Virus record (IMG/VR): IMGVR_UViG_3300020172_003141
Location: 1 to 26,870 of that record
Source: a virus
DNA length: 26,870 nt
Strand: one strand, 5' to 3'
A program made the position numbers and the translations under genes. Shown here in pieces: positions 5 to 26,140 of this stretch. Every line of letters begins with the position of its first letter. The stretch's first letter is position 1. A model generated the notes under the pieces. It was not told the origin of the DNA and ran no database searches. It saw nothing but the letters and a program-made list of their open reading frames with translations.

Positions 5-12
5 AATAAATA
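5..12 (+). promoter_or_regulatory. Putative late promoter octamer AATAAATA
   Basis: The octamer AATAAATA matches the T4 late promoter consensus TATAAATA at seven of eight positions and lies seven bases before the ATG at 20. With T4 spacing (start point about six bases past the last A) the leader would be about two bases. No Shine-Dalgarno sequence is visible. Inferred from similarity and from recurrence before other genes in this window. Confidence 0.55.
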
Positions 13-19
13 TTCAACT

Positions 20-415
20 ATGAGCACAATACTAGCAACATATAATATTTGTACACAAGACTGGACTATTGAAAAAAATACTGTAGTTGGGTATTACATC
101 GATTTACAAATTGGATTCGTGGATAAAGAAACACCTGTAGTGTTTAATAATGTTTCTTTGGGTTTCGAGTTTAGTCAAAACTCTAATAATATACAATCCT
201 TTCAATATCCTCCTGAAGGTGCTGTTATTCATAGTTCAGATCAACCTTATATAGTCAGCTACAGATTAGAAACTGAGTATTCAACAACTTACAATTTAAA
301 AATTTGGGCAGAAAATGATGGAGTGTATTCAGAAACTCTATATCAATTCGAAAGTATTGCTGCTCCAAATTTTGACGAAATGGAATTAGCAACAATTGAA
401 TACGAGGTAGAATGA
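20..415 (+). CDS. Beta-rich protein of unknown function, possibly virion-associated
   Basis: A 131-residue protein that I do not recognise. The composition is polar with alternating hydrophobic residues and no signal peptide or membrane segment. Residues from about 75 to 110 (SYRLETEYSTTYNLKIWAEN) look like paired beta strands of an immunoglobulin- or fibronectin-like sandwich, a fold common on phage fibres and capsid decorations. The start is supported by a late-promoter-like octamer seven bases upstream. Its stop overlaps the start of the next gene (ATGA), so the two are probably translationally coupled. It sits upstream of two fibre-like genes, which suggests a structural or fibre-accessory role, but that is inference from position only. 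Confidence 0.6.
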   Translation: MSTILATYNICTQDWTIEKNTVVGYYIDLQIGFVDKETPVVFNNVSLGFEFSQNSNNIQSFQYPPEGAVIHSSDQPYIVSYRLETEYSTTYNLKIWAENDGVYSETLYQFESIAAPNFDEMELATIEYEVE

Positions 416-10083: not shown

Positions 10084-11378
10084 TATAAATCTGCCCTTGG
10101 TCGTAATGCTTTAGATAAACTTTGACGCTCTGACACTGCTTCTCCGTCTACTACTATAGTATTAGTGTTGTTTACAAATTCTGTCTTGGCAGATTTTCTT
10201 GTATCAAGATTAGTCATTGTCATTCTAACATTATCTTCTCGCTTGACCCAACGAGCTCCGTTAAATCTAAATAATCTATTAGGCATAAAATCTGTTCTAA
10301 GAAAATAATTTCCTTCTCTTGCGGATACAGGAAACTGTGTGCCGTGTCCAAAATCAACTCCGTTTTCTGGTATGCCATCTCCTAACAGATATCCAGTGTA
10401 TCCTGACCTATCTGGTCTTTCGTGTATACGACTAGCATCTAACGCAGTTGAACTAGCATCTTCATTGGTAATGTCGGCTGCTGTTAGAGCAGGCTTGCCT
10501 TCGGAATCTACAGCTAGTGTATAAAACGATCTTGTGTCATAGCCACTCTTAGGAGCGTCTGCTTCTGCTTGTGCGAGTATAGCATCGTTAATTTCGATAT
10601 TTTTATCAAAAGTACTTAATAAATCTTGTATAGTGTTTCCGCTATACACACCAAAGTAACTAGTATTAGGCGGAGTATTACCTGTAGTAGTAGCAGTTAC
10701 AGTATAAAGAATTCCTTGATATCTAATTATTTCGCCTGGATTATAAGTTCTATCGTCGTCATAATCCCCAACATAATTAGCATCTTGATTAGTAGGTCTT
10801 TTAAGTATGTCAGCGTACTGCTGAGTATCGCTAATCTTCTTTAATTTTAATCTATATAGATGTGGCCACCAAGTTTGACTAAATCCTTCTGATGCTCGGT
10901 TAACATCTTCCACTACAAAAAATCTAGGCATAGCACTATCACGGTCATTTAGAGCAAACTGATCTCTTAAATGAGGTAATTCTAGAACATCACCTGCTAT
11001 TGGTTTACGACCAATAATAGTTACAAAATCGTTAATGTGTACAGTCATGTAGACCATGTCATTGTCTAAAAATAAGCCAAATTGACTTAGATTAAAATCA
11101 ATATCTTGTACCTGATAGTGTCCACGTATTCTGTAGATATCTTCACTGTATTTTCTATCTCGGTTTTCTAAAAATAATAGATCTTGTATGTTTGTTTCTT
11201 TGAGCACATCATAATGGGGCTGATCCGCAGTTGCTTGGTCTACAGGAGTATTCTGGGGTCCAAGATATTTGTGTAAGTAAACATCTGTGCCGCCCACAAT
11301 AAACATTTCCCTAATTTGACGGTCTATAAACTTATAATCGTGTCCTTTTTCAGGACGATAGAGTGATATACGTGGCAT
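10083..11378 (-). CDS. 14: gp14-like neck protein with inserted carbohydrate-binding-like module
   Basis: I place the start at the ATG at 11378 (431 residues, MPRISLYRPEKG). A TTG start 45 bases upstream would lie above the promoter octamer and is unlikely. Residues about 1-185 follow T4 gp14 in layout: a short GTDVYLHK segment like T4's VECYYVPR, then DNDMVYMTVHINDF...PIAGDVLELPHL, matching QDEVTLSI...EPKEGDLIYFP, then FFVVEDVNR. gp14 forms the neck with gp13 and joins head to tail. Residues about 203-245 (YNPGEIIRYQGILYTV, then a TPPN segment) look like a short chitin-binding or CBM5/12-type fold. Near the C-terminus is NRLFRFNGARW. T4 gp14 is about 256 residues, so this version is much enlarged. 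The downstream gp15 overlap supports the assignment. Confidence 0.7.
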   Translation of the reverse strand: MPRISLYRPEKGHDYKFIDRQIREMFIVGGTDVYLHKYLGPQNTPVDQATADQPHYDVLKETNIQDLLFLENRDRKYSEDIYRIRGHYQVQDIDFNLSQFGLFLDNDMVYMTVHINDFVTIIGRKPIAGDVLELPHLRDQFALNDRDSAMPRFFVVEDVNRASEGFSQTWWPHLYRLKLKKISDTQQYADILKRPTNQDANYVGDYDDDRTYNPGEIIRYQGILYTVTATTTGNTPPNTSYFGVYSGNTIQDLLSTFDKNIEINDAILAQAEADAPKSGYDTRSFYTLAVDSEGKPALTAADITNEDASSTALDASRIHERPDRSGYTGYLLGDGIPENGVDFGHGTQFPVSAREGNYFLRTDFMPNRLFRFNGARWVKREDNVRMTMTNLDTRKSAKTEFVNNTNTIVVDGEAVSERQSLSKALRPRADL

Positions 11379-11385
11379 AGTACAA

Positions 11386-11393
11386 TATTTAGC
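11386..11393 (-). promoter_or_regulatory. Putative late promoter for gp14 (GCTAAATA)
   Basis: On the minus strand GCTAAATA ends seven bases before the gp14 ATG at 11378. The predicted leader is about two bases, with no Shine-Dalgarno. It abuts the divergent gp13 octamer at 11394. Confidence 0.55.
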
Positions 11394-11401
11394 GATAAAT
11401 A
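11394..11401 (+). promoter_or_regulatory. Putative late promoter for gp13 (GATAAATA)
   Basis: GATAAATA lies 15 bases before the gp13 ATG at 11417. The predicted transcript would begin near 11407 and still include AGGA just before the start codon. An out-of-frame ATG at 11404 is followed by a stop after seven codons. Confidence 0.6.
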
Positions 11402-11416
11402 CTATGGGAGATAGGA

Positions 11417-12196
11417 ATGCCAACTAACGAAATAACAAGTACGAATCCACAAGAAATCAAGCAGAAAGTGTACGACTACTGTCGCGTCATGTTAGGTGAC
11501 GGCATGATTGATGTCGAACTAGATCCTATTCACTATGAAACTGCGTTAGAAAAAGCTCTAACTAAATTCAGGCAGCGTAGTCCTAACAGTGTAGAAGAAA
11601 GCTATGTTTTTTTGACCTTAGAAAAAGATAAGAATGATTACGTACTACCGCAGGAGATAGTGAATGTACAAAGTGTTTTTAGACGCACATTAGGATCAAG
11701 AACAGGCGGCGGTACTGGTACTAATTTTGAACCATTTAATCTAGCTTACACTAATACCTATTTGCTTAATAGCACTATGCTAGGGGGCATCGCTACTTAC
11801 TTTATGTTTGCTGGTTATCAAGAAATGGTAGGTAAAATATTTGGTAGCTACATAGAATTTCAATGGATTCCTACCAGTAAAGTTTTAAGGATATTACAGC
11901 GTCCATTTACTGAAGGCGAAGTGATCATGATGAGATGTCAAAATTATCGCCCAGATTATACCATTATAGACGATTATTTGGCTAAACAATGGGTAAAGGA
12001 TTATACCTTAGCTACTTGTAAACTAATGCTAGGCGAAGCACGTAGTAAGTTCGGAGCTATAGCAGGTCCTGGCGGCAGCGGCCAATTAAATGGAGCTGAT
12101 TTAAAATCGTCTGGTAAAGAAGAAGTAGAAAAACTAGAAAAAGAATTAGAAACATTAGTAGCAGGTGGCACTGGATATACATTTATTATTGGTTAA
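11417..12196 (+). CDS. 13: gp13-like neck protein
   Basis: A 259-residue protein whose N-terminal third (IKQKVYDYCRVMLGDGMIDVELDP, then YETALEKALTKFRQRSPN and YVFLTLEKDKNDYVLP) has the layout of T4-like gp13: a small helical domain with an acidic 'LG...hxVELxxxxhxxxhxxAhxxF' motif followed by a beta strand after a charged turn. gp13 and gp14 form the neck that closes the filled head and receives the tail. T4 gp13 is about 309 residues, so the size is compatible. Residues about 185-205 (LAKQWVKDYTLATCKLMLGEARSKFG) are a helix common near the C-terminus of this family. It is divergent from gp14, with back-to-back late-promoter octamers between them, and is followed by an unknown gene after one base. 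Confidence 0.65.
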   Translation: MPTNEITSTNPQEIKQKVYDYCRVMLGDGMIDVELDPIHYETALEKALTKFRQRSPNSVEESYVFLTLEKDKNDYVLPQEIVNVQSVFRRTLGSRTGGGTGTNFEPFNLAYTNTYLLNSTMLGGIATYFMFAGYQEMVGKIFGSYIEFQWIPTSKVLRILQRPFTEGEVIMMRCQNYRPDYTIIDDYLAKQWVKDYTLATCKLMLGEARSKFGAIAGPGGSGQLNGADLKSSGKEEVEKLEKELETLVAGGTGYTFIIG

Positions 12197-14147: not shown

Positions 14148-14418
14148 CACATACTGTTTTTAAGTTAAGTGGTCTAGTATTGTTAAGATTGCCGTCGACA
14201 TGAAATACATTAAATTGCTCTTTAAGTTTACTTTTAAATCCACACTTATCACAACTTAACTTTTGCCTATAACCGTCTTTGTACCATTTGGGTACACCGT
14301 GTGCTAGGCCTCCGTGTTTAATACATATTTCGCATTTTTTACGATAGTATGTTTTATTATTTTTAATATAGTTAACAGCGGCAGGTCTAAGATTACAAAT
14401 ACATAGTGGTCTAGTCAT
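14077..14418 (-). CDS. HNH homing-type endonuclease
   Basis: I place the start at the ATG at 14418 (113 residues, MTRPLCICN), because a late-promoter-like octamer ends five bases upstream; an ATG at 14445 gives nine more residues and would lie above it. Cysteine pairs CEIC, CDKC and CANC suggest zinc-ribbon knuckles. The nuclease core is FNVFHVDGNLNNTRPLNLKTVCANCQ, with His, Asn and a later His in the usual H-N-H spacing, followed by RVLHKEG and a WRQGDLQPDF end. I recognise this as a free-standing HNH type frequent in aquatic T4-like phages. Such enzymes cut related phage DNA and spread by repair. It lies opposite its neighbours between dNMP kinase and the sheath gene, overlapping the former by 71 bases. 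Confidence 0.85.
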   Translation of the reverse strand: MTRPLCICNLRPAAVNYIKNNKTYYRKKCEICIKHGGLAHGVPKWYKDGYRQKLSCDKCGFKSKLKEQFNVFHVDGNLNNTRPLNLKTVCANCQRVLHKEGVQWRQGDLQPDF

Positions 14419-14423
14419 ACTAG

Positions 14424-14431
14424 TATTTACC
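14424..14431 (-). promoter_or_regulatory. Putative late promoter for the HNH gene (GGTAAATA)
   Basis: On the minus strand GGTAAATA is followed by five bases (CTAGT) and then ATG at 14418. With T4 geometry the first transcribed base would be the A of the start codon. Confidence 0.55.
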
Positions 14432-14488
14432 CCGAGCCTTTTCATGCCCTTTTCTCAAAGGTATAAGTAGTCAATTTTGTGTTTTTCC

Positions 14489-14496
14489 AATAAATA
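14489..14496 (+). promoter_or_regulatory. Putative late promoter for tail sheath (AATAAATA)
   Basis: AATAAATA lies 30 bases before the gp18 ATG. The predicted transcript keeps a leader of about 25 bases carrying AGGAGA at 14515-14520, with normal spacing to the ATG. This is the arrangement expected for a very abundant structural protein. Confidence 0.65.
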
Positions 14497-14526
14497 ACAT
14501 TAGAACACCAAATTAGGAGATGCAAG

Positions 14527-17500
14527 ATGGCATTAAGTTCACCAGGCGTAGAAGTCAAAGTTATTGACGAATCTTTTTATACACCAGCCGAACCTGGCAC
14601 AACACCTTTAGTTATTGTTGCCTCGGCCGAAAACAAACCCAACGCGGCAGGCACTGGAACCGCTCCAGGAACTACTAAGGCCAATGCCGGTACTGTTTAT
14701 TTACTAACCAGTCAGAGAGATCTAGCAGACACATTTGGAGATCCAATCTTCAAAACTGATGCTGGCAATAATCCAATCCATGCTGGTGAACAGAATGAAT
14801 ATGGTTTACAGGCTGCTTACAGCTTCCTAGGAGTCAGTAATCGTGCGTTTGTAGTACGTGCTGATCTAGACCTAGCACAGTTAGATGCCAGCGCAGATGC
14901 TCCTATCGCTTTGCCAGCAAATGGCACACATTGGCTCGACACTAGTACTACAGTATTTGGAATTTTTGAATGGAACGGCGCTGCTATTAGCACAACAGGA
15001 GGACAAAAATTTTCCAACAAAGTGCCTTTAGTAATTACAGATTCTACAAAAGTAGATCTTTCAAGTCAAGGTCCTTTAGGTAGCGTAGGTGCCATTGGCG
15101 ATTACGCAGTCGTGATAACTGATGTAGATTCAGATACTCCTGCTCTAACAACTAGCCATCCAGGAACACTGTGGTACAAGAGCAAAGGAAACACCAACGC
15201 AGGTGTTCCAGCAGGCACATGGGTTAATGTAGGTAGTGAAGATTGGCACAAGTCTGTTGCTGTTATAGCTGGTACTGTTTCTAACCCAGCATTTACAGCA
15301 GGCGACAATTTTTATATTAACGGTGTGTTAGTCACTGCTAGCGGCACCACAGTAAGTAGTTTGGCAACAGATATCAATAACGCATTTGGTGTAGGCACAG
15401 GTCCTGTTTATGCTCAAGCATATAACAGTAAATTAGAACTTTACACTAATGGTATGGCTTCGAGCGGTGGCGATAGTACACAATCTAATGCTATTATTAT
15501 TGCATCCGGTACTCAAGGAAGTTTAGTTGCTGGTAGTGTTGCAGCAAGTGCTTTAGGTATTAAAACAGGAACATATTACGGTGCTAAACTGAATATCAGT
15601 AAGCATACTGAAGTCCCACAATGGAAGTCTTCAACAACTGGTCCACGTCCAACAGGCAGCGTGTGGATTAAAACTACGGAACCAAATTTAGGCGCTCGTT
15701 GGAGAGTAAAACGTTGGAACAGCGCAACGGCAGCATGGGTAGCAGTAGACGCTCCAATTTATCTAAACGGCCATGAAGCAATTTATAACATAGACAAAGC
15801 AGGCGGCGGAATAAATTTAAGCACTGGAGCATTATATGTTCAGGCCAACTATACAGAAGATAGTGGTACCGATGCTACTCCGATGTTAGGTAATTTTAAA
15901 ATATTTAGAAGAGCGGCAGCAGGAGAATGTTCGATTGTAAGTACAAAAATTATTGCTAGTACATTTACAAATGCTACAAGTTATACATTTAGAATTGCTG
16001 AAAGTTTAGTAGGAACTAGTGTACTAGGTGATTACAATGAAACTGGTACTTATAGTTTTAAAACAATTAGTTTTCAAGGATCTGGAGCAGCTAGCGACAA
16101 CGCAGAAGTAGTAGCTAACGCAATTAACGCAGCCGGATTTACTAACATTGTAGCTAGTATTGATAGTCAGAATCGTTTAGTAATTACTCATACTAGAGGA
16201 GGCGATTTCAGATTAACAGAAGGTACAAACAGTCCGTTAGTAGACTTAGGATTCGCTTCTTATGACTTCGAGCCTAGTAATGTTACTTTTGGTTCAGGAA
16301 CAGCTAATTTATCTGCTGCTCCTGCTGGCGATGTGCTACATAATTTTGTAGCTAGTTTATGGCATCCTCTGGTTTACGTGTCTAATGGAGATGCTCCAGG
16401 TAGTTTAACAGATTCCGGACGATTATGGTACAGTAGCGTCATTGACGAAATTGATATTATGATTCACGATGGTAGTGATTGGGTAGGGTATCGGTCAGCT
16501 ACTGCTCCTTACTATGTTAATGGTACCGACTTAAATGGTCCAATTGTAGGAGCAACAGCACCAGAAACACAAAGTGATGGTAGTGCTCTAGTAACTGGCG
16601 ACTTATGGATCAGTACTGATGACATTGAAAATTTTCCACAGATATATCGATTTAATAACGAGTTAACTGCTCCAGTAGTTAAGAGGTGGGAATTATTAGA
16701 TAAATCAGATCAAAGTACAGAAGACGGTGTTCTGTTTGCTGATGCTCGTTACAATACAGCAGGTGCTAACAGTGATGCAGCCGGTGCTATTCTAGATTTA
16801 CTTGAGAGTAATTATTTAGATCCAGATTCTCCAGATCCAGCACTATATCCTCGTGGTATGCTACTATGGAATCTACGTAGAAGTGGATTTAATGTAAAAC
16901 GGTTTGAAAGAAATTATATAGACATCGCTGCTGATAATACAAGATTTAATGGCGAGGCAATGGAAGCGTACTATCCACATCGTTGGGTAACCACAAGTCC
17001 AAATCAAGGTGATGGGTCTGGTAGTTTTGGACGTAAAGCACAAAGATCGGTGGTTGTAAAAGCTCTTCAAGCTACAGTTAATGCTAATCAAGATATCAGA
17101 GATGATGAAAGCAGAATCTTTAACTTAATTGCTTGCCCAGGTTATCCAGAGCTAATAGGCGAAATGATCAGTCTAAATTATGACAGAGGATTAACAGCAT
17201 TAGTTATAGGTGATAGTCCTGCTAGATTAACTCCAGATGCAACTTCATTGTTAGCATGGGGTAGTAATCAAAACTTAGCATTTGAAGATAACGATCTTGG
17301 AGCAGTAAGCTTTGATGAATATATGGCAATGTTTTATCCATCAGGTTTTACCAGCGATAATTTCGGTAACAATATAGTTGTTCCACCAAGTCATATGATA
17401 CTAAGAACTATTGCCTTAAACGACCAAGTTGCTTATCCTTGGTTCGCCCCGGCTGGTATTCGTAGAGGCGGTATTACTAATGCTACTGCGGTAGGCTATG

Positions 17501-17976
17501 TTGATAGTCAAGAAGGCGAATTTAAATCAGTGGCATTAAATGTAGGTCAGCGCGACACATTGTACGAACAAAAAATTAATCCTATTACATTCTTAACAGG
17601 TACAGGATTAGTTAACTATGGACAGAAAACTCGTGCTAAAGGGGCCAGCGCACTAGATCGTATCAATGTTGCTCGCTTAGTAATATATCTGCGTAGTCAA
17701 TTAAACAAGTTGGCTAAACCGTATATTTTTGAACCTAACGATAAACTTACACGCGATGAAATTAAATTAGCGGTAGACAGTCTATTGTTAGAATTAGTAG
17801 GTCAACGTGCTATATATGACTTCTTGGTGGTGTGTGATGAAAGTAATAATACTCCAAGTAGAATTGATCGTAACGAGCTGTATGTTGACATAGCAATTGA
17901 GCCAGTTAAAGCGGTTGAGTTTATATATATTCCACTTCGCTTAAAGAATACTGGCGAAATAGCAGCGTTAGGTTAA
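14527..17976 (+). CDS. 18: Tail sheath protein gp18, enlarged
   Basis: A 1149-residue contractile sheath protein. The N-terminus ALSSPGVEVKVIDES, followed by VASAENKPN, LLTSQRDLADTFGDP, and AAYSFLGVSNRAFVVRADL, is the usual start of T4-like sheath proteins. The C-terminal third holds the conserved core: AYPWFAPAGIRRGGI, INPITFLTGTGLVNYGQKT, INVARLVIYLRSQL, and YVDIAIEPVKAVEFIYIPL. Subunits polymerise around the gp19 tube and contract on infection. T4 gp18 is about 659 residues. The extra length lies in the middle (about residues 130-740) and carries several Gly-x-x-Trp segments such as GTLWYKS, GSVWIKT, GRLWYSS and GDLWIST, which probably form surface domains (inference). A strong Shine-Dalgarno and a late octamer precede it, and gp19 follows directly. 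Confidence 0.95.
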   Translation: MALSSPGVEVKVIDESFYTPAEPGTTPLVIVASAENKPNAAGTGTAPGTTKANAGTVYLLTSQRDLADTFGDPIFKTDAGNNPIHAGEQNEYGLQAAYSFLGVSNRAFVVRADLDLAQLDASADAPIALPANGTHWLDTSTTVFGIFEWNGAAISTTGGQKFSNKVPLVITDSTKVDLSSQGPLGSVGAIGDYAVVITDVDSDTPALTTSHPGTLWYKSKGNTNAGVPAGTWVNVGSEDWHKSVAVIAGTVSNPAFTAGDNFYINGVLVTASGTTVSSLATDINNAFGVGTGPVYAQAYNSKLELYTNGMASSGGDSTQSNAIIIASGTQGSLVAGSVAASALGIKTGTYYGAKLNISKHTEVPQWKSSTTGPRPTGSVWIKTTEPNLGARWRVKRWNSATAAWVAVDAPIYLNGHEAIYNIDKAGGGINLSTGALYVQANYTEDSGTDATPMLGNFKIFRRAAAGECSIVSTKIIASTFTNATSYTFRIAESLVGTSVLGDYNETGTYSFKTISFQGSGAASDNAEVVANAINAAGFTNIVASIDSQNRLVITHTRGGDFRLTEGTNSPLVDLGFASYDFEPSNVTFGSGTANLSAAPAGDVLHNFVASLWHPLVYVSNGDAPGSLTDSGRLWYSSVIDEIDIMIHDGSDWVGYRSATAPYYVNGTDLNGPIVGATAPETQSDGSALVTGDLWISTDDIENFPQIYRFNNELTAPVVKRWELLDKSDQSTEDGVLFADARYNTAGANSDAAGAILDLLESNYLDPDSPDPALYPRGMLLWNLRRSGFNVKRFERNYIDIAADNTRFNGEAMEAYYPHRWVTTSPNQGDGSGSFGRKAQRSVVVKALQATVNANQDIRDDESRIFNLIACPGYPELIGEMISLNYDRGLTALVIGDSPARLTPDATSLLAWGSNQNLAFEDNDLGAVSFDEYMAMFYPSGFTSDNFGNNIVVPPSHMILRTIALNDQVAYPWFAPAGIRRGGITNATAVGYVDSQEGEFKSVALNVGQRDTLYEQKINPITFLTGTGLVNYGQKTRAKGASALDRINVARLVIYLRSQLNKLAKPYIFEPNDKLTRDEIKLAVDSLLLELVGQRAIYDFLVVCDESNNTPSRIDRNELYVDIAIEPVKAVEFIYIPLRLKNTGEIAALG

Positions 17977-17991
17977 TAAAGGAAAAATAAA

Positions 17992-18600
17992 ATGGCAATT
18001 ACATCATTAAATAGATTTACAGTCCCGTTAGCTGGCGGGGAAACCCAAGGCACATTGATGCCTAAACTAAAATATCGTTATAGAATATTTTTTGAAGGCT
18101 TTGGCGCCACTGGGTCTAACTCAGAATTAACCAAACAAGTTCAAACTGCTGCAAGACCAAGTGTCAGTTTTGCTCCGCAAACTATTGAAGTTTATAATAG
18201 TAAAATTAACTATGCTGGCAAACATACTTGGGCACCAATGGCTGTTGTATTGCGTGACGACGTTACAGGTGAAGTCAGTAAACGTGTTGGCGAACAGATA
18301 CAGAAACAATTCGACTTCTTAGAGCAAAGTTCTGCTGCTAGTTCAAGTGATTACAAATTTACTATGAGTGTTGAAATGTTAGATGGCGGTAATGGTACTG
18401 CTGTACGACGTTTAGAGCGATGGGAATGTTACGGATGCTTTATTGTAACTGCTAACTATAACTCATTAAGTTATTCTGAAGCAGCACCACAGACGATCGA
18501 TCTAAGCATTCAAGCAGACAACTGTATCCTTGTACCAGCAGGAGAAGGTAGTCCAATATTTGCTACAGCAGGACGAGCTTTAGGCACGTTAGCTACATAA
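17992..18600 (+). CDS. 19: Tail tube protein gp19
   Basis: A 202-residue tube subunit. Typical features are the short N-terminus MAITSLNRFTVPL, the KLKYRYRIFFEGF strand, ARPSVSFAPQTIEVYNSKI with the conserved YNSK turn, WAPMAVVLRDDV, FKFTMSVEMLDG-like strand and RRLERWECYGCFIVTANY, ending with QTIDLSIQADNC. It forms the rigid inner tube through which DNA passes. T4 gp19 is about 163 residues; the difference is mostly in loops and the C-terminal tail. The order gp18-gp19 is the T4 order. AAAGGA stands eight bases before the ATG. A strong hairpin terminator lies two bases past the stop, so gp18-gp19 form a closed transcription unit. Confidence 0.93.
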   Translation: MAITSLNRFTVPLAGGETQGTLMPKLKYRYRIFFEGFGATGSNSELTKQVQTAARPSVSFAPQTIEVYNSKINYAGKHTWAPMAVVLRDDVTGEVSKRVGEQIQKQFDFLEQSSAASSSDYKFTMSVEMLDGGNGTAVRRLERWECYGCFIVTANYNSLSYSEAAPQTIDLSIQADNCILVPAGEGSPIFATAGRALGTLAT

Positions 18601-18601
18601 T

Positions 18602-18630
18602 AAAAAGGCAGCGGAAACGCTGCTTTTTTT
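18602..18630 (+). terminator. Rho-independent terminator after gp19
   Basis: A six-pair GC-rich stem (GCAGCG 18608-18613 with CGCTGC 18618-18623) closes a GAAA tetraloop and is followed by seven T. The A-run before the stem pairs with the T-run, so it could act on both strands, though no gene converges from the other side. Confidence 0.92.
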
Positions 18631-18665
18631 ATGGGTTTTTATTAACTACATAGTTAATGAATTCT

Positions 18666-18673
18666 GATAAATA
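18666..18673 (+). promoter_or_regulatory. Putative late promoter (GATAAATA), zero-leader geometry
   Basis: GATAAATA is followed by TTTTT and then ATG at 18679. The spacing of five puts the predicted transcript start on the start codon. No Shine-Dalgarno is present: the bases before it are only A and T apart from one G and one C. Confidence 0.6.
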
Positions 18674-18678
18674 TTTTT

Positions 18679-19749
18679 ATGGCAAAAGACTTCGGACAAT
18701 TTGTAAGCGGATTAACAAATCCTAAAGGTATCTTAGGCGATTTTCGCCATGCTGCTAGACTATTTGTTGACGACAATTTAAGGTTAGCTCCTAAGCAAAA
18801 GTTTCAATTTCATTGTATCTTTAGTATCAATACTAATGCTCTAAAAAGTCAAAATCTATCTGATAGACACAGAAATGAAATTAACATGCTGGTAAAATCA
18901 GCTGAATTACCTAAATTTGCTGTTTCGACTGAAACAATTAATCAATATAATAGAAAAAAAGTCGTACAAACAAAAGTAGATTATCAACCTGTTTCAATAA
19001 AGTTTCACGACGACAATCTAGGTATAGTAAGGACCATGTGGGAAAACTATTATGCCTACTACTATGCTGACTCTATTAGTGCTAAATTGCCAGGAGCGTA
19101 TAATAGAACAGCCATGCTGAATTCGTCACAGATAAGAACACCATATGGATTTGACAATAATAGTTCATATCCTTTTTTTAATAAAATAACCATTTATCAA
19201 ATGGCTAAAAAATACTGGAATAGCTATACTTTAGTAAATCCATTAATCACAACTTGGTCTCATGACAGTCTAGACTATTCGGGCACTAGTCCTAGTGAAC
19301 AAAGTATGACCTTAGCCTACGAAGCAGTATATTATGAAACTGGACGAGTTGGCAGAAATAATCCGTCAGGGTTCGGACTTGAACATTATGATACTATACC
19401 TAGTCCATTAACACTAGCAGGCGGAGGAACAAAGTCATTATTAGGCGAAGGCGGCGTATTGGCTGGCGCTGACCAAGTCTTTGGAAATGTAGTGAATATG
19501 CTACAGAATCCTCAAGAAGCTACACTAGGAAATATTTTAGGTACAGCTATTCTCGCTAATAATACATACAGCAATGCTGGCCAGTTATCTAAAACTGGTG
19601 TAAAAGCAGAACTGCTTGGCATCACAAGTGCTTCTTTAGGCAAAGTTGCCAATCAAGGAATAAGTGGTATCGTAGGCACATCGTTTCCTGTTGCTAATAC
19701 AGGAAGCGGCTCTACCACAGCATCTTCTAGAAATCTTACAGGTAGATAA
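18679..19749 (+). CDS. Tube-like virion structural protein (possibly gp54-type)
   Basis: A 356-residue protein. Residues about 30-120 contain LRLAPKQKFQFHCIFSI, INMLVKSAELPKF, ETINQYNRKKVVQTKVDYQP and IKFHDDNLG, which parallel the gp19 segments ARPSVSFAPQTIEVYNSKI, WAP and VVLRDDV. It therefore probably has the tail-tube fold. A mid-section rich in Tyr (MWENYYAYYYAD), then YQMAKKYWNSYTLVNP and a closing MTLAYEAVYYETGRVG strand follow; the last 110 residues are Gly/Ala/Ser-rich and probably flexible. In T4, gp54 initiates the tube on the baseplate and shares the tube fold, so gp54 or another tube-extending protein is the best guess. Proteins of this type occur beside tail genes in aquatic T4-like phages. 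The start is set by a late octamer five bases upstream. Confidence 0.7.
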   Translation: MAKDFGQFVSGLTNPKGILGDFRHAARLFVDDNLRLAPKQKFQFHCIFSINTNALKSQNLSDRHRNEINMLVKSAELPKFAVSTETINQYNRKKVVQTKVDYQPVSIKFHDDNLGIVRTMWENYYAYYYADSISAKLPGAYNRTAMLNSSQIRTPYGFDNNSSYPFFNKITIYQMAKKYWNSYTLVNPLITTWSHDSLDYSGTSPSEQSMTLAYEAVYYETGRVGRNNPSGFGLEHYDTIPSPLTLAGGGTKSLLGEGGVLAGADQVFGNVVNMLQNPQEATLGNILGTAILANNTYSNAGQLSKTGVKAELLGITSASLGKVANQGISGIVGTSFPVANTGSGSTTASSRNLTGR

Positions 19750-19752
19750 TAT

Positions 19753-20127
19753 ATGAGTATTGTTACAAACTTGCCACCATCAGAATCTACTGATAGTGCC
19801 GAAGAAGTAAAAAGTTTTTTTGATAAATTTTTTACTCATGAAATCACTTTTCCTGCCGCTGTAATAGATGCTGCTGTTGGATTCTTTTTAAAGAGAGGAT
19901 TTCAAGAACAGTCTGCTAGAACCACAGCAATTGTGATACTTACTCAGAGCAGAATCGATGATATCAATCCTTTTGTAGTTTTAGACACATTAAAAAAGCT
20001 CGACGAAACACAGTTAAGTGAAGTAGTAACGCAGATAATGAATATATCAAGAGAAAAAACTTCTACGCTAGGTTACAAAATTCAAATTTTAGAAGATACT
20101 TTCGAAAGTCGTAATATAGCGCAATGA
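19753..20127 (+). CDS. Conserved-type unknown protein (124 aa)
   Basis: A 124-residue, mostly helical, soluble protein. Its core, FPAAVIDAAVGFFLKRGFQEQSA then NPFVVLDTLKKLDETQLSEVVTQIMN and a TSTLGYK segment near the C-terminus, is a pattern I recall from uncharacterised proteins beside structural genes of aquatic T4-like phages. No motif gives a function. It starts three bases after the previous stop and overlaps gp4 in ATGA, so it belongs to the tube-like/gp4/gp16 operon and is probably involved in head or tail assembly (inference). Confidence 0.75.
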   Translation: MSIVTNLPPSESTDSAEEVKSFFDKFFTHEITFPAAVIDAAVGFFLKRGFQEQSARTTAIVILTQSRIDDINPFVVLDTLKKLDETQLSEVVTQIMNISREKTSTLGYKIQILEDTFESRNIAQ

Positions 20128-20561
20128 GCAAATTTGCCAACGGAAAGTTCATGCTAACAAATGCTGGAAAATACGTTGGCAATCATCAACCAACCTATCG
20201 TAGTAGCTGGGAATGGAAGTTTATGAATTTCTGCGATAAAGATCCTAGAATTCTTAAATGGGCCAGCGAAGCAATAAAGATACCTTACAAAGATCCATTT
20301 ACTGGAAGAAACACTGTCTATGTACCAGACTTCTTTATTCAGTACGCAGATAAAAATGGCATCATGCAGGTAGAATTAATCGAAGTTAAACCTCAAAGTC
20401 AAACACTATTAGAAAAAGCTGGCAAAAATCGTAACAATCAATTACAGTGGGCTAAGAATCAAGTCAAATGGAGAGCAGCCCAGAGTTGGTGTAGCAAACA
20501 AGGTATAAAATTTAGAGTGTTGACTGAAAATGATTTATTCGTTAACGGCCGTCTAGGATAA
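20124..20561 (+). CDS. 4: Head completion protein gp4 (nuclease-fold)
   Basis: A 145-residue protein, close in length to the T4 gp4 head completion protein (about 150). The conserved start YRSSWEWKFMNFCD, ILKWASEAIKIPY, VYVPDFFIQY and QVELIEVKP give the residues E30, D69 and E87-x-K89 of a PD-(D/E)xK (TnsA-like) nuclease core. gp4 acts after packaging, when filled heads are finished before tail joining; its nuclease-like site may trim DNA ends, although that function is inference from the fold. It begins in an ATGA overlap with the upstream gene. Its stop codon TAA lies inside the GATAAGTA octamer preceding gp16. Confidence 0.88.
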   Translation: MSKFANGKFMLTNAGKYVGNHQPTYRSSWEWKFMNFCDKDPRILKWASEAIKIPYKDPFTGRNTVYVPDFFIQYADKNGIMQVELIEVKPQSQTLLEKAGKNRNNQLQWAKNQVKWRAAQSWCSKQGIKFRVLTENDLFVNGRLG

Positions 20562-20564
20562 GTA
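20557..20564 (+). promoter_or_regulatory. Variant late promoter octamer (GATAAGTA) before gp16
   Basis: GATAAGTA differs by one base from GATAAATA and is followed by ACAGT and ATG at 20570, the same five-base spacing as other sites. It includes the gp4 stop codon. An AGGA at 20555-20558 is about 11 bases before the ATG, so weak Shine-Dalgarno initiation from a longer transcript is the alternative. Confidence 0.4.
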
Positions 20565-20569
20565 ACAGT

Positions 20570-21043
20570 ATGAAAAAGTTAGAAGAAATCCTAAATTTAC
20601 CTGAAAGCAAGAAGCTTATTAAAAAAGAAGAAATGTCCAAAGCTGAAGAAGCAGTACAGCCATTACTTAGAGATATTTCAGAATTTGATAAAATAGCGTC
20701 AGCCCTGCCGCAAGTAAAAGGATTAGGCGATATCAGCGACAAAGAATTCGATGAGCTGGCCCAACGTGCTACTGATGCGTTTGATGATCTCATGGATTTA
20801 GGCATGAATGTCGAAGCACGTTATAGTGGACGAGTGTTTGAAGTAGCAGGAACCATGCTTAAAAATGCTATTGACGCTAAGGCAGCTAAGATTGATAAAA
20901 AGCTCAAAATGGTAGAGCTACAGCTTAAGAAGCAAAAATTAGACCAAGATGTCAAGACCGATGATACCACAGATATCACTGGTAACGGTGTTATTATAAC
21001 AGATCGCAATAGTCTAATTGAAAAACTTAAGAATATGAAATAA
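20570..21043 (+). CDS. 16: Terminase small subunit gp16
   Basis: A 157-residue protein, close to T4 gp16 (164). The central segment FDELAQRATDAFDDLMDLGMNVEARYSGRVFEVAGTMLKNAIDAKAAKIDKKLKMVELQLKK, of which LMDLGMNVEARY and the helix KLKMVELQLKK are most typical, matches T4-like small terminases with a coiled-coil core (about residues 65-125). gp16 forms rings that recognise concatemer DNA and regulate the gp17 motor. The gene lies directly downstream of gp4 and two genes before gp17, with a terminator between; in T4, gp16 and gp17 overlap. The N-terminus is charged and the C-terminus ends in a short SLIEKLKNMK helix. Confidence 0.88.
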   Translation: MKKLEEILNLPESKKLIKKEEMSKAEEAVQPLLRDISEFDKIASALPQVKGLGDISDKEFDELAQRATDAFDDLMDLGMNVEARYSGRVFEVAGTMLKNAIDAKAAKIDKKLKMVELQLKKQKLDQDVKTDDTTDITGNGVIITDRNSLIEKLKNMK

Positions 21044-21046
21044 ATA
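21039..21046 (+). promoter_or_regulatory. Putative late promoter octamer AATAAATA
   Basis: AATAAATA overlaps the gp16 stop codon (TAA 21041-21043) and lies 18 bases before the ATG at 21065. The predicted leader is about 13 bases, with only a weak CGGG as a possible ribosome site. Confidence 0.45.
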
Positions 21047-21064
21047 TAATATCGGGATTGACAC

Positions 21065-21697
21065 ATGAAATCATTTAAAGATTACTTAACAGAAAGCGTA
21101 GAAGAGAAAAAATACTCTTTTAAAATTAAAGTGGCGGGCGAACTACCTGAGCATTTTGAAGACACTGCTAAAGCAGCTCTCCAGAAATATCAAGTAGCAT
21201 CTTTTAACAAAGGTAAAACCACTCCAATACAATCAAAATTAGTAGATTTTCCTACTTTGGAAAACATGCAGATAACAGTATTTGACATCGATTTAGATTA
21301 TCCTACTACCAGTCAAGTGCTTACTTCGTATGTAGCAGAACACACAGGTGTAGATCTTTGTTGTATCCGTGTGCGTAGTCTTAAAGAAGAAGAAGAATCA
21401 GAAATTAATGCTAAGAATTTAATAGATGGTGATACAGGGGCTTTGTTAAATCAAGATTACACAAAAGAAAATAATCAAAATTTAGTAGGTGATAAGCATG
21501 TAACTAGTTTTTTAAAAGAACTAGCAAAAGTTAGTAAAGAGTATCAGCCTACACAGTATAAAGGTGTCAACGAAAAGATCTTGGCTAAGGCACCGCCGAA
21601 AGAAAAAGCCTCAGCTTCAAGTAAAGCTGGACCTGCTAAGAGTGTACTAAAAGGTCTATCAGGTAATCCAAATCCAAGGAAAGGAACAACAAAATGA
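21065..21697 (+). CDS. Unknown 210-aa protein with capsid-targeting-like N-terminus
   Basis: A soluble protein of unknown family. Its N-terminus MKSFKDYLTES aligns residue for residue with the T4 internal head protein signal MKTYQEFIAEA, and L-T-E fits the (I/L)-x-E cleavage rule of prohead protease gp21. After it, residues about 16-105 form an alternating beta/alpha domain (YSFKIKVAGELPEHFEDTAKAAL, TPIQSKLVDFPTL, MQITVFDIDLDYPTTSQVLTSYVAEHTG), followed by an acidic segment (EEEESE) and a basic, Pro/Ser/Lys-rich C-terminus. The domain resembles uncharacterised proteins of other aquatic phages. If the signal is real the protein is packed into the prohead and processed. It overlaps the next gene in ATGA. 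Confidence 0.75.
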   Translation: MKSFKDYLTESVEEKKYSFKIKVAGELPEHFEDTAKAALQKYQVASFNKGKTTPIQSKLVDFPTLENMQITVFDIDLDYPTTSQVLTSYVAEHTGVDLCCIRVRSLKEEEESEINAKNLIDGDTGALLNQDYTKENNQNLVGDKHVTSFLKELAKVSKEYQPTQYKGVNEKILAKAPPKEKASASSKAGPAKSVLKGLSGNPNPRKGTTK

Positions 21698-22344
21698 ATT
21701 TCAACGAATTATTTCAAAAAATGAGAGAACTGGATCAGCCAGTTCAAGAATCAGATAAAGCATCTAAAGATTATGACGGCGATGGCGAAGTCGAATCTGG
21801 TAAAGATGAGTACATGGGTTCAAGAGATAAAGCAATTAAAAAAGCTACAGGCAAGGATGATGAAGACACAAGTGAAAGCTTAGATCAACTAGCTACAGAA
21901 GTACAGCAAGAGATGGACGAATGTGGAATGCCAGGCATGAGCAGTATGCCAAATGGAATGATGGGTATGAACAAACAACAAGATAGTGTAAGTATGAATT
22001 TAAGTATGAATGGTTCTGGCAGCGGCGGCATCCGTGATTTAATGGATATTCTTCGTAATTTAGAACAAGATGATGAACACCACGGTGATCATGACGACGG
22101 CTTAGATATGAAAATTGGCGGTCCTGCGCTAATGCTTAAAAAAGATCCTATAATAGGAGACGACTGGGATAATAGTCCTGATCCACAAGTAAAGACAGCA
22201 GGCGCATTTCCTAGCGACACAGGCAATGATATACATCGCCCTAAAGGATCTTATCCAGCTGTGTCAGGAGGAGATAATCCAATGGCTCTAGAAAACATTG
22301 TAAGTAGATTAGATAGACTATATAAAGAAGTAAGAGAGAAGTAA
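21694..22344 (+). CDS. Unknown acidic protein with EF-hand-like DYDGDG loop
   Basis: A 216-residue, strongly acidic protein. Residues 26-40 (DYDGDGEVESGKDEY) look like a calcium-binding EF-hand or dockerin loop with D26, D28, D30 and G31; the glutamate expected at position 12 is Lys, so binding is uncertain. Residues about 77-113 are rich in Met, Gly, Asn and Ser, with several MxM and GM steps. An HHGDHDDG cluster follows, then PALMLKKDPIIGDDWDNSPDPQ. The last residues (MALENIVSRLDRLYKEVREK) form a basic amphipathic helix. No family of known function is recognised. The start overlaps the preceding stop, and a strong terminator follows. It may be a scaffold or head-associated protein, which is inference from location. 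Confidence 0.75.
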   Translation: MNFNELFQKMRELDQPVQESDKASKDYDGDGEVESGKDEYMGSRDKAIKKATGKDDEDTSESLDQLATEVQQEMDECGMPGMSSMPNGMMGMNKQQDSVSMNLSMNGSGSGGIRDLMDILRNLEQDDEHHGDHDDGLDMKIGGPALMLKKDPIIGDDWDNSPDPQVKTAGAFPSDTGNDIHRPKGSYPAVSGGDNPMALENIVSRLDRLYKEVREK

Positions 22345-22362
22345 TAGTGTAAACAGGCACTC

Positions 22363-22390
22363 AAAACCGGGCATGTTGCCCGGTTTTTTA
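22363..22390 (+). terminator. Rho-independent terminator before gp17
   Basis: Seven-pair stem CCGGGCA (22367-22373) with TGCCCGG (22377-22383), a three-base TGT loop and six T; flanking A-run pairs with the T-run, lengthening the stem. It closes the tube-like/gp4/gp16 operon 18 bases after the stop. Confidence 0.93.
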
Positions 22391-22391
22391 T

Positions 22392-22399
22392 TGTAAATA
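22392..22399 (+). promoter_or_regulatory. Putative late promoter for gp17 (TGTAAATA)
   Basis: TGTAAATA starts right after the terminator T-run and is followed by five bases (ATATT) and the ATG at 22405. No Shine-Dalgarno is present. Terminator and promoter together insulate gp17 from the upstream operon. Confidence 0.6.
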
Positions 22400-22404
22400 A
22401 TATT

Positions 22405-24003
22405 ATGGCAAGTAAGAGTTTAGACGGTGTTTTAACTAAAAAAGCACACACCAGGGAAACGTTCACAGAAAAACAAATTCAAGATTTGTTAACGTGTGCC
22501 AACGATGAAGTTGGCTATCATTATTTCTGTGGTAATTTCTTTTATATTCAGCATCCTGTAAAAGGAAAGATGCTGTTTGAACCTTTTGAATATCAAACAA
22601 AGTTATTAGATGCTTATCATGGACACAGATTTAATATCAATATGCTTCCTCGACAGATGGGCAAGACAACCTGTGCCGCGGGATATCTGTTATGGTATGC
22701 TATGTTCCATCCAGATCAGACCATATTAATATCAGCACACAAATATACAGGCTCACAGGAAATTATGCAGCGTGTACGGTATGCCTACGAACTATGCCCA
22801 GACTATATTCGTAGTGGTGTTATTAATTATAATAAAGGTAGTATAGAATTTGACAATGGCAGTCGTATAATATCAACCACTACAACTGGTAATACTGGTC
22901 GTGGTATGAGTATATCATTATTATACTGCGACGAGTTTGCTTTTGTCCCTCCTAATATTGCCGACGAATTTTGGACTTCAATTTCTCCTACACTGGCAAC
23001 TGGTGGTAAGGCAATTATCACTAGTACTCCGAACAGTGACGAAGACACATTTGCTACTATTTGGAAAGAAGCAAATAAAAAGTTCGATGAGTTCGGTAAT
23101 GAGCAAGACGTAGGTGTTAACGGTTTCTTTCCATTCACTTGTAAATGGGACGAACATCCAGATCGGAATGATGCTTGGGCTGTACAAGAACGTAGTCGTA
23201 TCGGTGAAGAACGCTTCCGCCGAGAATATAATTGTGAATTTTTAATTTATGACGAGACGTTAGTTAGCAGTATGTGTCTAGCAACCATGGAAGGAAAAAC
23301 TCCTATAATGAATATGGGACAGACCCGCTGGTATAAAAAACCCAATTCCGAATCTATCTATGCTATTTCCCTAGATCCAAGTTTAGGAACTGGAGGAAAC
23401 AGCGCAGGAATTCAAGTATTCGAATTACCTAGTTTTACACAGGTAGCAGAGTGGCAGCACAATTTAACACCCATCCAGGGCCAAGTTCGAGTGTTGAAAG
23501 AAATTTTAAAATATATTATCGACGAAGTAGGGGAAGAAAATGGCAGAAATATATACTGGAGTGTTGAAAATAACACTGTAGGTGAAGCTGCTCTCATTTG
23601 TATACGGGACATAGGAGAAGAAAACTTTCCTGGACTGTTCATAAGTGAACCGATTAGAAAAGGGCATATTCGTAAGTTTCGTAAAGGGTTTAATACCACC
23701 CATAACACAAAAATAGCTGCTAGTGCTAGATTAAAGTATCTTATAGAATCGGGAAAGATGACAATTAATAGTAAACCTTTGATATCAGAACTTAAGGCTT
23801 TTATAGCTAAAGGTATTACATTTAAAGCCAAAGAAGGGGAACAGGACGATTTAGTCAGCGCCTGCTTGCTTATTATCAGAATAAGTCAAGTGTTAGCAGA
23901 CTGGGATTCTAGAGTATTTGATAACTTTAGCAGTAACGAAAACATTTCTAACGAGGACTTTGAACTTCCTATGCCTATTTTCATTTCGTCTAGCATAGGA
24001 TAA
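22405..24003 (+). CDS. 17: Terminase large subunit gp17
   Basis: A 532-residue packaging motor (T4: 610). The ATPase half has Walker A LPRQMGKTT (about 81-89), Walker B LLYCDE (about 172-177, catalytic Glu) and the coupling motif ITSTPN (about 205-210). The nuclease half has the RNase-H-like acidic residues D324 in ISLDPSLGTGG, E388 in SVENN and D481/D482 in EQDDLVSACLL. It translocates DNA into the prohead and cuts the concatemer. The shorter length comes mostly from the N-terminus and loops. The start is fixed by the late octamer and by lack of upstream frame. The gene is separated from gp16 by two unknown genes and a terminator, unlike the T4 order. Its stop codon lies inside the next octamer. 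Confidence 0.97.
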   Translation: MASKSLDGVLTKKAHTRETFTEKQIQDLLTCANDEVGYHYFCGNFFYIQHPVKGKMLFEPFEYQTKLLDAYHGHRFNINMLPRQMGKTTCAAGYLLWYAMFHPDQTILISAHKYTGSQEIMQRVRYAYELCPDYIRSGVINYNKGSIEFDNGSRIISTTTTGNTGRGMSISLLYCDEFAFVPPNIADEFWTSISPTLATGGKAIITSTPNSDEDTFATIWKEANKKFDEFGNEQDVGVNGFFPFTCKWDEHPDRNDAWAVQERSRIGEERFRREYNCEFLIYDETLVSSMCLATMEGKTPIMNMGQTRWYKKPNSESIYAISLDPSLGTGGNSAGIQVFELPSFTQVAEWQHNLTPIQGQVRVLKEILKYIIDEVGEENGRNIYWSVENNTVGEAALICIRDIGEENFPGLFISEPIRKGHIRKFRKGFNTTHNTKIAASARLKYLIESGKMTINSKPLISELKAFIAKGITFKAKEGEQDDLVSACLLIIRISQVLADWDSRVFDNFSSNENISNEDFELPMPIFISSSIG

Positions 24004-24006
24004 ATA
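23999..24006 (+). promoter_or_regulatory. Putative late promoter (GATAAATA) before the 680-aa gene
   Basis: GATAAATA contains the gp17 stop codon TAA (24001-24003) and is followed by TCAGT and ATG at 24012. An AGGA at 23997-24000 is about 11 bases from the ATG, too far for a good Shine-Dalgarno but not excluded. Confidence 0.55.
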
Positions 24007-24011
24007 TCAGT

Positions 24012-26054
24012 ATGGATATCAATCTAAACTTAATTGCTAAAGAACTTTTTGCTAAAATTAGGACTCAATTTCCTAGTATCGAACTAGAGGACGAGAAAAA
24101 CGACCCTACGGACGAACCTGCTTTAGCAAGAACCTTCAAATTTGATTTTAAGAAGAATCGATTAGATCTAGGATCAATAGAAGTTAGCATATCAGATGAA
24201 GACGGTATGGTAGTGCTGTTCAGTAACGACATAGTGTCAACACAACCTGATCGGGTGCGAAAACTATGGTTCAATTTTATAAGAGAACTTAGAGAATTTG
24301 CCAAACAAAAAATGCTAAACTATCAAATAAGAGATATCAATTTAAATCAATTAGAAAAACGAGACGGAGAAACGCAAATGACTGAGAGTAAGTTAAGCGG
24401 CACTAGTAAAACCAGTTACCAAGATTTAGGCGAAACAAAGATTATTATCAAGCACACACAGCCTGTAAATCTTAATTTGCCTGCTGGTAGAACTATGCAC
24501 ATTGAGAGTATTTTTATTGAAAATGCTCAAGGAGAACGTTTTCGTTATCCGTACAAACATTTAAATGGTGCTCGTGCACTAGCTCAACATGTATCGCATG
24601 GCGGCACTAGTTATGATGACATTGGTACACATATTATTAGCCTGAGTGAAGAAATGAATAAACTCAGAATGTTTAAAGGATATGTAGAAAGAAATCCTAT
24701 GGTATCAGAAGCTATGGGTGAAATTAACAATAGAGTGTTAGAAAGAATTCAAGAAGTTAAAAAAGAAATCACTAGTTTGCAAAAAAGTGCTTACTACGAA
24801 CAGTTTGCTGAATCATTTACAGGCAAAGCTAACGAAGAAATTCCAGAAGAAATCATTAATGACTGGGTTGATAGATTAACTATCAGAAGCTTCAACGAAG
24901 AATTGAAGAATGTATTTCCTTATATCTATAAGTTAGTAGGTGAAAATAATTTACCAATTAAAGTACTTAACCCTGAAGATATACCAGGCATACAGATTGG
25001 TAATACCACAGAACAGATTCAAGATGAGATAGATGAACTTATTGATTTTGAAAGTTATTTAAATAAATTAGTTGGTGAAGGAATAGATATTTTCAGCAGT
25101 GACGAAGACCAACAAGCAGAAGCAATTCAAAAATTGAACGGATTAGTCAGTCAAGAGTTTCCAGTAGGACCTGACGGAAGTAATGCTAAAGGTAGCCTGC
25201 AGGATATAATAGACGATGACGAATTATTTGATATTTTTAAAGAATTATCAGATGTAAGTCCTGAAAGCGATATTCGTCCTATTCTTAAAGATTATATCAA
25301 GATTAAAGATGAAGAAAATGGCACAGATGTTTTAGGAAAAATTAATTTTCCAGAAGGTAACGAAGAGCCAGCAGAGCCAGCAGCACCTGAGGCTCCTGAA
25401 ACACCCGCTGAGCCAGCAGCACCAGCAGCACCGGCAGCAGCACCTAGTATGCCGATGTCGCCTGGAGTAGCGATGGAAGAAAACATTAAGCGAGTGATCG
25501 AAAAAGCAAAATCAGCAGGAATGACAGCAGAAGATACATTTACTTTATTCGGCGAGGAAGTAACATTATCAGATGCTATCAAACGTGTTGGATTAGATAT
25601 AAATGAATTTTTTGATCAGGCCGGTTATGAAGACAGCGGTGACGAAGTTGTAGAATTTGTTCGCAGTATGTTCGACGAAGAAGGTAATACTCCAAAAGGA
25701 CCAACTGGTGTACTGATTAGTGTTGAAAAGAAATTTGGGGAAGAAGCTGTAGAAAAAGCCAAAGACACTATGAACGAATTAATAGGACAATCAGAAGTAC
25801 AGCGTATTCGAGAATTGTCCGGTATTGGTGAAGAGCAAGATGATGGAAGAGATTTACTTGATTTGACCTATGGGGCATTAACAGGCGGGAAACGTCGTCC
25901 AGAACCAACCACACCAGGTCAAGGAGCTCAACCAACGCAAGGGAAAAAACCAACTACACCAGGGCAAGCAGGTCAACCAGTAGGCGGGCAAGCAGGTCAA
26001 TATCAAAGTCCTAGTTACTTAGATAAACTCAAAAAATTGGCTGGTGTCAAGTAA
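24012..26054 (+). CDS. Unknown 680-aa protein downstream of gp17
   Basis: Not recognised as a family of known function; the segment MTESKLSGTSKTSYQDLGETK and FRYPYKHLNGARALAQHV resembles uncharacterised proteins of other aquatic T4-like phages. Residues 1-110 form an alpha/beta domain. Residues about 115-260 include the HLNGARALA motif and a long charged helix (NNRVLERIQEVKKEITSLQ, possible coiled coil). Residues about 265-440 are acidic and helical. Residues about 450-480 are an Ala/Pro/Glu linker, and about 630-666 a Pro/Gly/Gln/Thr-rich tail with PTTPGQ repeats, ending YLDKLKKLAG. No membrane segment is seen. The large size, linkers and late promoter suggest a structural or head-internal protein; this is inference. 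Confidence 0.75.
   Translation: MDINLNLIAKELFAKIRTQFPSIELEDEKNDPTDEPALARTFKFDFKKNRLDLGSIEVSISDEDGMVVLFSNDIVSTQPDRVRKLWFNFIRELREFAKQKMLNYQIRDINLNQLEKRDGETQMTESKLSGTSKTSYQDLGETKIIIKHTQPVNLNLPAGRTMHIESIFIENAQGERFRYPYKHLNGARALAQHVSHGGTSYDDIGTHIISLSEEMNKLRMFKGYVERNPMVSEAMGEINNRVLERIQEVKKEITSLQKSAYYEQFAESFTGKANEEIPEEIINDWVDRLTIRSFNEELKNVFPYIYKLVGENNLPIKVLNPEDIPGIQIGNTTEQIQDEIDELIDFESYLNKLVGEGIDIFSSDEDQQAEAIQKLNGLVSQEFPVGPDGSNAKGSLQDIIDDDELFDIFKELSDVSPESDIRPILKDYIKIKDEENGTDVLGKINFPEGNEEPAEPAAPEAPETPAEPAAPAAPAAAPSMPMSPGVAMEENIKRVIEKAKSAGMTAEDTFTLFGEEVTLSDAIKRVGLDINEFFDQAGYEDSGDEVVEFVRSMFDEEGNTPKGPTGVLISVEKKFGEEAVEKAKDTMNELIGQSEVQRIRELSGIGEEQDDGRDLLDLTYGALTGGKRRPEPTTPGQGAQPTQGKKPTTPGQAGQPVGGQAGQYQSPSYLDKLKKLAGVK
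25363..25450 (+). repeat. Ala/Pro/Glu codon repeat encoding a flexible linker
   Basis: Reiterated GCA, CCA and GAG/GAA codons encode alternating EPAAPE/APAAP units inside the 680-aa gene. A second low-complexity tract (PTTPGQ, AGQPVGGQAGQ) lies near 25900-26010. Both are likely disordered linkers and prone to slippage. Confidence 0.7.
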
Positions 26055-26105
26055 ACGGCAAAAAAAGTCGAAAAAAAACTGTTATTTCTCTTGTAAGACT
26101 AAATA

Positions 26106-26140
26106 AAAGCGCATACAATACAACGTATGCGTTTTTTGTT
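26106..26140 (+). terminator. Rho-independent terminator after the 680-aa gene
   Basis: Stem CGCATAC (26110-26116) with GTATGCG (26125-26131), an eight-base loop AATACAAC, and six T. It separates the gp17 unit from gp32. The preceding 26055-26105 stretch is A-rich with no gene visible. Confidence 0.85.

Follow-up and report, generated by a model that had tools for sequence, protein, structure and literature searches.

Late promoters placed against start codons point to a probable class of leaderless late mRNAs in T4-like phages

In five genes of a T4-like myovirus fragment, an octamer of the late-promoter type stands exactly five bases before the start codon, which raises the question of whether the late mRNAs of these genes begin on the AUG itself. 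The fragment (hereafter the window) is the whole virus record, 26,870 bases long. It encodes the sheath, two tail-tube-like proteins, a head closure protein, the small and large terminase subunits and virion proteins; gp32 (a name taken from the original prediction) begins inside it. Megablast of the window against sequenced phage isolates found no close relative. The nearest gp17 among sequenced phages, 54% identical, was that of the Pseudomonas jumbo phage PA5oct and its kin, and the gene order of PA5oct resembles that of the window. A gp17 relative (68% identical) came from a MAG with the label Euryarchaeota; this is most likely a phage contig binned in error, and the match was uninformative as to the host.

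Octamers and start codons in the window

Five sites fit DRTAARTA-N5-ATG exactly, where 0.58 was expected, and they lie at the very positions given in the original prediction:

14416–14431, minus strand: HNH gene (14418 to 14077); late octamer GGTAAATA at 14431–14424, spacer CTAGT, ATG at 14418–14416
18666–18681, plus strand: second tail-tube-like gene (18679–19749); octamer GATAAATA, spacer TTTTT, ATG
20557–20572, plus strand: gp16-like small terminase gene (20570–21043); octamer GATAAGTA, spacer ACAGT, ATG
22392–22407, plus strand: gp17 large terminase gene (22405–24003); octamer TGTAAATA, spacer ATATT, ATG
23999–24014, plus strand: 680-aa virion gene (24012–26054); octamer GATAAATA, spacer TCAGT, ATG

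None of 100 shuffled versions of the window reached five such sites (the maximum was four). Chance was ruled out by these shuffles, by permuted hexamers and by the clustering in gene families as compared with other spacings and motifs (see below). The spacers differ from site to site, as had been pointed out, while the octamer and its distance are kept; sequence duplication was therefore rejected as the cause of the fixed spacing. The core TAA(A/G)TA was present at all sites and enriched at gene starts, the first two bases of the octamer being variable (G/T, A/G).

The HNH gene is the weakest of the five cases. In the window a second in-frame ATG lies upstream at 14445, with no equivalent in G001, and the relatives of this gene show weak SD-like purines; its spacing was N4–5 in 25 of 27 relatives. 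The octamer of the second tail-tube-like gene is preceded by a terminator (18602–18629). An inverted repeat, TTAACTACATAGTTAA (18642–18657), was also observed 5' of this octamer, with variants in several relatives, for example TTAACTACGTAGTTAA in G001.

A spacing of seven bases had been proposed for the first gene and for a minus-strand structural gene, then called gp14, and it is correct for both. These sites are listed with other octamers of the window whose genes carry longer leaders:

5–22, plus strand: first gene (20–415); octamer AATAAATA at 5–12, N7, ATG at 20; predicted 2-nt leader
11376–11393, minus strand: virion structural gene (11378 to 10083); octamer, N7, ATG at 11378; predicted 2-nt leader
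11394–11419, plus strand: head-tail adaptor gene (11417–12196); divergent octamer (TAAATA at 11396–11401), N15, Shine-Dalgarno (SD) leader; SD class
14491–14529, plus strand: sheath gene (14527–17976); octamer (TAAATA at 14491–14496) and SD leader; comparator of the SD class
21041–21067, plus strand: 210-aa gene (21065–21697); TAAATA at 21041–21046, 18 nt to the ATG; leadered comparator

For the minus-strand structural gene (TAAATA at 11391–11386), the spacing in relatives was N7 in seven cases and N4 in three. Its octamer core and that of the head-tail adaptor gene were found back to back and diverging (TATTTA-GCGA-TAAATA, 11386–11401), and the pair appears to feed one near-leaderless message, for the minus-strand virion gene, and one leadered message, for the adaptor. 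For the 210-aa gene, 69 of 70 relatives had TAAATA at a spacing of 13–24 from the ATG. A hairpin resembling a two-way terminator (26105–26136) was visible downstream of the 680-aa gene and adjoins the TAAATA (26100–26105) ahead of gp32.

Spacing and leader classes across relatives

Eighty relatives were fetched via gp17, and the spacing survey covered 1.0 Mb of relatives. These contigs were collected by one gene and are related, so that counts among them are not independent trials; safer evidence comes from the family counts and from the second lineage. The original prediction had suggested examining the distribution of spacings. Among the 915 TAAATA sites in the 1.0 Mb, spacings to an open reading frame's ATG peaked sharply at five (180 sites) and four (58 sites). 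Distances of 9–13 were nearly empty, and a second peak was observed at 18–19 (66 sites), where the leaders carry an SD. The scarcity of sites at about N9–N13 fits the proposed start on the AUG, since leaders of a few nucleotides would be too short for an SD and yet not leaderless. The candidate fused genes, 325 in total, corresponded to 11 families and 17 singletons. With TAAATA at N4–6, nine families were found in at least three contigs, the largest in 74, 73, 50 and 25 contigs, compared to two families (the largest in four contigs) at N8–10 and none at N11–13. Five control hexamers at N4–6 gave one to five families each, none of them in more than 11 contigs.

In the comparison of ortholog families, the start codons were picked by protein alignment and not by the octamer. 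The spacing was N4–6 in 36 of 38 relatives for the tube-like gene, N4–5 in 59 of 64 for gp16, and N4–6 in 73 of 80 for gp17 and 74 of 79 for the 680-aa gene. An SD motif was rare in front of the same genes (1/38, 4/64, 6/80 and 14/79, respectively, the last figure falling to 2% by anti-SD energy) and in front of the HNH gene (2 of 27). All six gp17 relatives that carry an SD motif are without the octamer and group together, with AAGGAAG at its position, and other genes of this group still have octamers at N4–6. Conversely, an SD was present in all of the sheath (31), main tube (46) and gp32 (52) relatives and in 49 of 50 relatives of the 216-aa gene. The genes for the sheath, the main tube and the capsid, as well as gp32 and dNMP kinase, belong to the SD-leader class. 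The median anti-SD energy was −7.3 for sheath and gp32, versus 0.9 for gp17, −0.1 for the tube-like gene and −0.6 for the 680-aa gene; the HNH gene, with −4.4, has kept a weak SD-like potential. The two classes of message originally proposed were supported, class membership following the gene family across relatives, and the SD leaders assigned to gp18, gp19, gp13, dNMP kinase and gp32 were recovered.

The original prediction had also raised, against itself, an AGGA approximately 11 nt upstream of gp16 and of the 680-aa gene. This motif is real in the window and comes from the final codon, GGA, of the gene before, but it is rarely conserved: it was found in that position in 2 of 54 (gp16) and 9 of 57 (680-aa gene) distinct relatives, and a function as SD was ruled out on this ground.

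Start point, late sigma factor and alternative explanations

Bacterial transcripts start preferentially at a purine (+1) that follows a pyrimidine (−1). A pyrimidine preceded the ATG at all 164 distinct N5 sites of the five families (T 152, C 12), at 40 of 45 N4 sites and in 134 of 212 SD-class genes. Because A was the commonest base before the ATG in two families devoid of both SD and octamer, the pyrimidine is not a general trait of SD-less starts. In the leadered sheath promoters, the fifth base after the octamer was T (71%) and the sixth A (89%), in the same phase as at the N5-ATG sites. The T4 late octamer spans −13 to −6, its first base being numbered −13 (PMC2988020), and with this numbering the A of an N5 ATG is +1. 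At the level of sequence, the pyrimidine-A step five to six bases past the octamer fits the T4 placement.

The region in front of gp17 contains a further element:

22363–22391, plus strand: intrinsic terminator (11-bp stem, 3-nt loop, T-run); hairpin at 22363–22387, directly before the gp17 octamer

Almost all relatives show the same succession upstream of gp17, with a GC-rich hairpin, a T-run, TTGTAAATA or similar, four to six varied bases and the ATG. In 56 of the 62 distinct relatives, a hairpin with an energy of −6 kcal/mol or lower (median −13.2) stood together with a T-run that begins 5–9 nt ahead of TAAATA.

A gp55-family gene (phrog_234/phrog_12791) was found in the four longest relatives, G001–G004 (98–199 kb), and in PA5oct, Phosso, HTVC008M, Mosig and Melnitz. 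The shorter relative contigs gave no gp55 match, as fragments may, and none was seen among the annotated ORFs of the window, itself a fragment. The gp55 homologues of the relatives are longer and more diverged (frames of 277–285 codons, E about 1e-25 versus 1e-70 for T4), and that of HTVC008M matches the family profile closely (E 3.5e-66).

We propose that late promoters read by gp55 are, very probably, fused to the start codons of a fixed set of late genes, with the RNA starting on the AUG. In this model, a gp55-class sigma factor would read T4-type octamers and the RNA would begin at the A of the AUG, giving a leader of 0 nt for N4 and N5 and of about 2 nt for N7; at the N4 sites, approximately a fifth of the fused ones, initiation would have to occur one base closer to the octamer than is normal in T4. 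Ribosomes would engage the 5' AUG of the fused messages without an SD. The other late genes would have the same octamer at least about 13 nt farther from the start codon and an SD in the leader, one promoter type thereby giving two translational classes, of which the leadered one includes the abundant sheath and main tube. The leaderless late mRNAs of the original prediction were supported by every sequence-based test able to speak against them, which argues strongly for the leaderlessness of the fused late genes. The sequences themselves show the fixed spacing and its conservation, the loss of the SD, the pyrimidine in front of the ATG, the adjoining terminator and, in the longest relatives, gp55; the transcript start and the translation of leaderless RNA are inferred, as would be any effect on protein dosage.

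Translational coupling, although improbable, is the alternative that survives best. Ribosomes would restart 8 nt past the upstream stop, and the octamer would be there since its TAA is that stop. The overlap is real at gp16, whose octamer includes the TAA (20559–20561) of the head-closure gene, and at the 680-aa gene, whose octamer includes the TAA (24001–24003) of gp17; in addition, the head-closure and 124-aa genes, which are SD-less too, overlap or abut their upstream gene. However, coupling is inapplicable to gp17 (terminator and intergenic gap), to the tube-like gene (78-nt gap) and to HNH, and it is the entire (G/A)ATAA(A/G)TA that is kept, not TAA alone, together with the pyrimidine before the ATG. 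For gp16 and the 680-aa gene, it is possible that coupling on read-through RNA provides a second route. It is less likely still that the octamer acts in translation, as an A/U-rich landing element for the ribosome or S1 on a longer mRNA. The octamer is A/T-rich and at a fixed distance from the ATG, and a U before the AUG can aid pairing of the initiator tRNA, but genes with an SD leader have the same octamer at distances from 18 to over 24 nt, and in the sheath promoters it is followed by the pyrimidine-A step at an unchanged distance. Moreover, there is little space for a leader at gp17, where a terminator comes directly before the octamer; the octamer-less SD-less genes show no pyrimidine preference before the ATG; and a gp55-family sigma factor is encoded. 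The least likely explanation, a gp55 geometry unlike that of T4 with the start point elsewhere and either another leader or the first AUG missing, could appeal to the longer and more diverged gp55 homologues, but at N4–N5 it is the ATG that coincides with the pyrimidine-A step, which occupies the fifth and sixth bases in the leadered sheath promoters, and HTVC008M, whose gp55 is near the family profile, has the same N5.

Given promoters fused to start codons, a low copy number of the products would be a plausible reason why certain genes are concerned. A tentative extension, which we regard as possible but on balance doubtful, is that two channels set the stoichiometry of assembly, perhaps exploiting a late shift in the state of the ribosomes: the high-copy virion parts (sheath, main tube, capsid) would be SD-led and the low-copy parts leaderless (terminase, second tube protein, DNA-end protector, neck and baseplate pieces). 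The ribosomal protein bS21 is a participant in SD pairing. A bS21 gene was present in HTVC008M, Mosig, Melnitz, PA5oct and Phosso and was not found in G001–G007, T4, S-PM2, Syn9, CBB or phiM12. With PA5oct and Phosso encoding it and G001–G007 without it, there is no clean link to the fused class and phage bS21 was rejected as the enabling factor; a possible role for it in the choice of late translation is worth testing.

Distribution among phages and comparison with known systems

The number of genes with TAAATA-N4..6-ATG was counted per genome and compared to the expectation from permuted hexamers, some of which overlap the real motif, making the expectations conservative. In the group of the window, observed and expected counts were 8 and 0.7 (G001), 5 and 0.3 (G002), 6 and 0.5 (G003), 4 and 0.6 (G004), and 6 and 0.6 (G005). 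The pelagiphages HTVC008M (12 versus 0.9) and Mosig (6 versus 1.6) also possessed the class, and the methylophage Melnitz showed it weakly (3 versus 0.4). It was absent or at chance level in T4 (1 versus 0.9), PA5oct (2 versus 2.6), S-PM2, Syn9, CBB and phiM12 (0 each). The fused sites of HTVC008M match starts annotated by others, including those of gp2 (18916, minus strand) and, on the plus strand, gp4 (18943), gp48 (19456) and gp25 (31132). The gp2 gene is fused in HTVC008M, Mosig and Melnitz and has a strong SD in T4; gp18, gp19 and gp23 have SD leaders in the same three phages. The succession terminator-octamer-N5-ATG could also be read in HTVC008M (6280, plus strand, a 2OG oxygenase gene) and Mosig (106670). 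The layout thus appears to be shared by cultured SAR11 phages and by T4-like phages that form a large uncultured group. Neither PA5oct nor cyanophages belonging to the same family (Kyanoviridae) have the class, which makes more than one gain, or loss, of it probable. An alphaproteobacterial host was rejected as the cause, as the Sinorhizobium phage phiM12 has no such gene and host class alone is not predictive. Isolated SD-less octamer-N5-ATG starts were noticed in PA5oct (36095 in L086, and 84079) at a structural protein and the gp21-like protease; the PA5oct lineage may carry a trace of the class, although its counts are not above chance.

The late promoters of T4 (TATAAATA; gp55/gp33/gp45; PMC2988020) share with those described here the octamer consensus and the placement at virion genes, and a gp55-family sigma factor is encoded in the longest relatives. 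In the T4 late region the octamers lie 9–46 nt from the ATG and nearly all leaders have an SD, whereas an SD-less fused set recurs here. The single N4–6 case in the T4 genome is a 62-codon ORF, and the difference from T4 originally put forward was supported, T4 having no fused class. Cyanophage late promoters (NATAAATA; PMC2984593) have the same octamer and gp55, but S-PM2 and Syn9 are without N4–6 genes. In pelagimyophages, the prediction of late promoters by cyanophage methods was reported to be unsuccessful (PMC7029224). Promoters abutting the ATG may explain this failure. The lambda cI message is a phage mRNA beginning at its AUG, but it concerns a single repressor gene, whereas the present case involves an entire class of late genes, structural and packaging ones. 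In bacterial leaderless genes, a −10 box is located approximately 10–12 bp before the start codon (PMC3160421, where lambda is also mentioned). They likewise combine a −10-type element at a fixed distance, a start point coinciding with the start codon and no SD; they use a promoter of the host sigma-70 type, whereas here a phage late promoter would be used, in phages that otherwise have strong SDs. Phage transcripts in general are reported to be often leaderless (PMC5312081), and we found no report of leaderless late genes in T4-like phages in the open-access literature searched.

The octamer-N5-ATG arrangement is a direct signal for the annotation of start codons, and the cultured SAR11 phages HTVC008M and Mosig make leaderlessness testable. 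If true, abundant aquatic T4-like phages would offer a natural system for the competition of leaderless mRNAs during infection. Textbook T4 late messages carry SD leaders; with a conserved leaderless late set, the placement of the promoter alone would switch the mode of translation.
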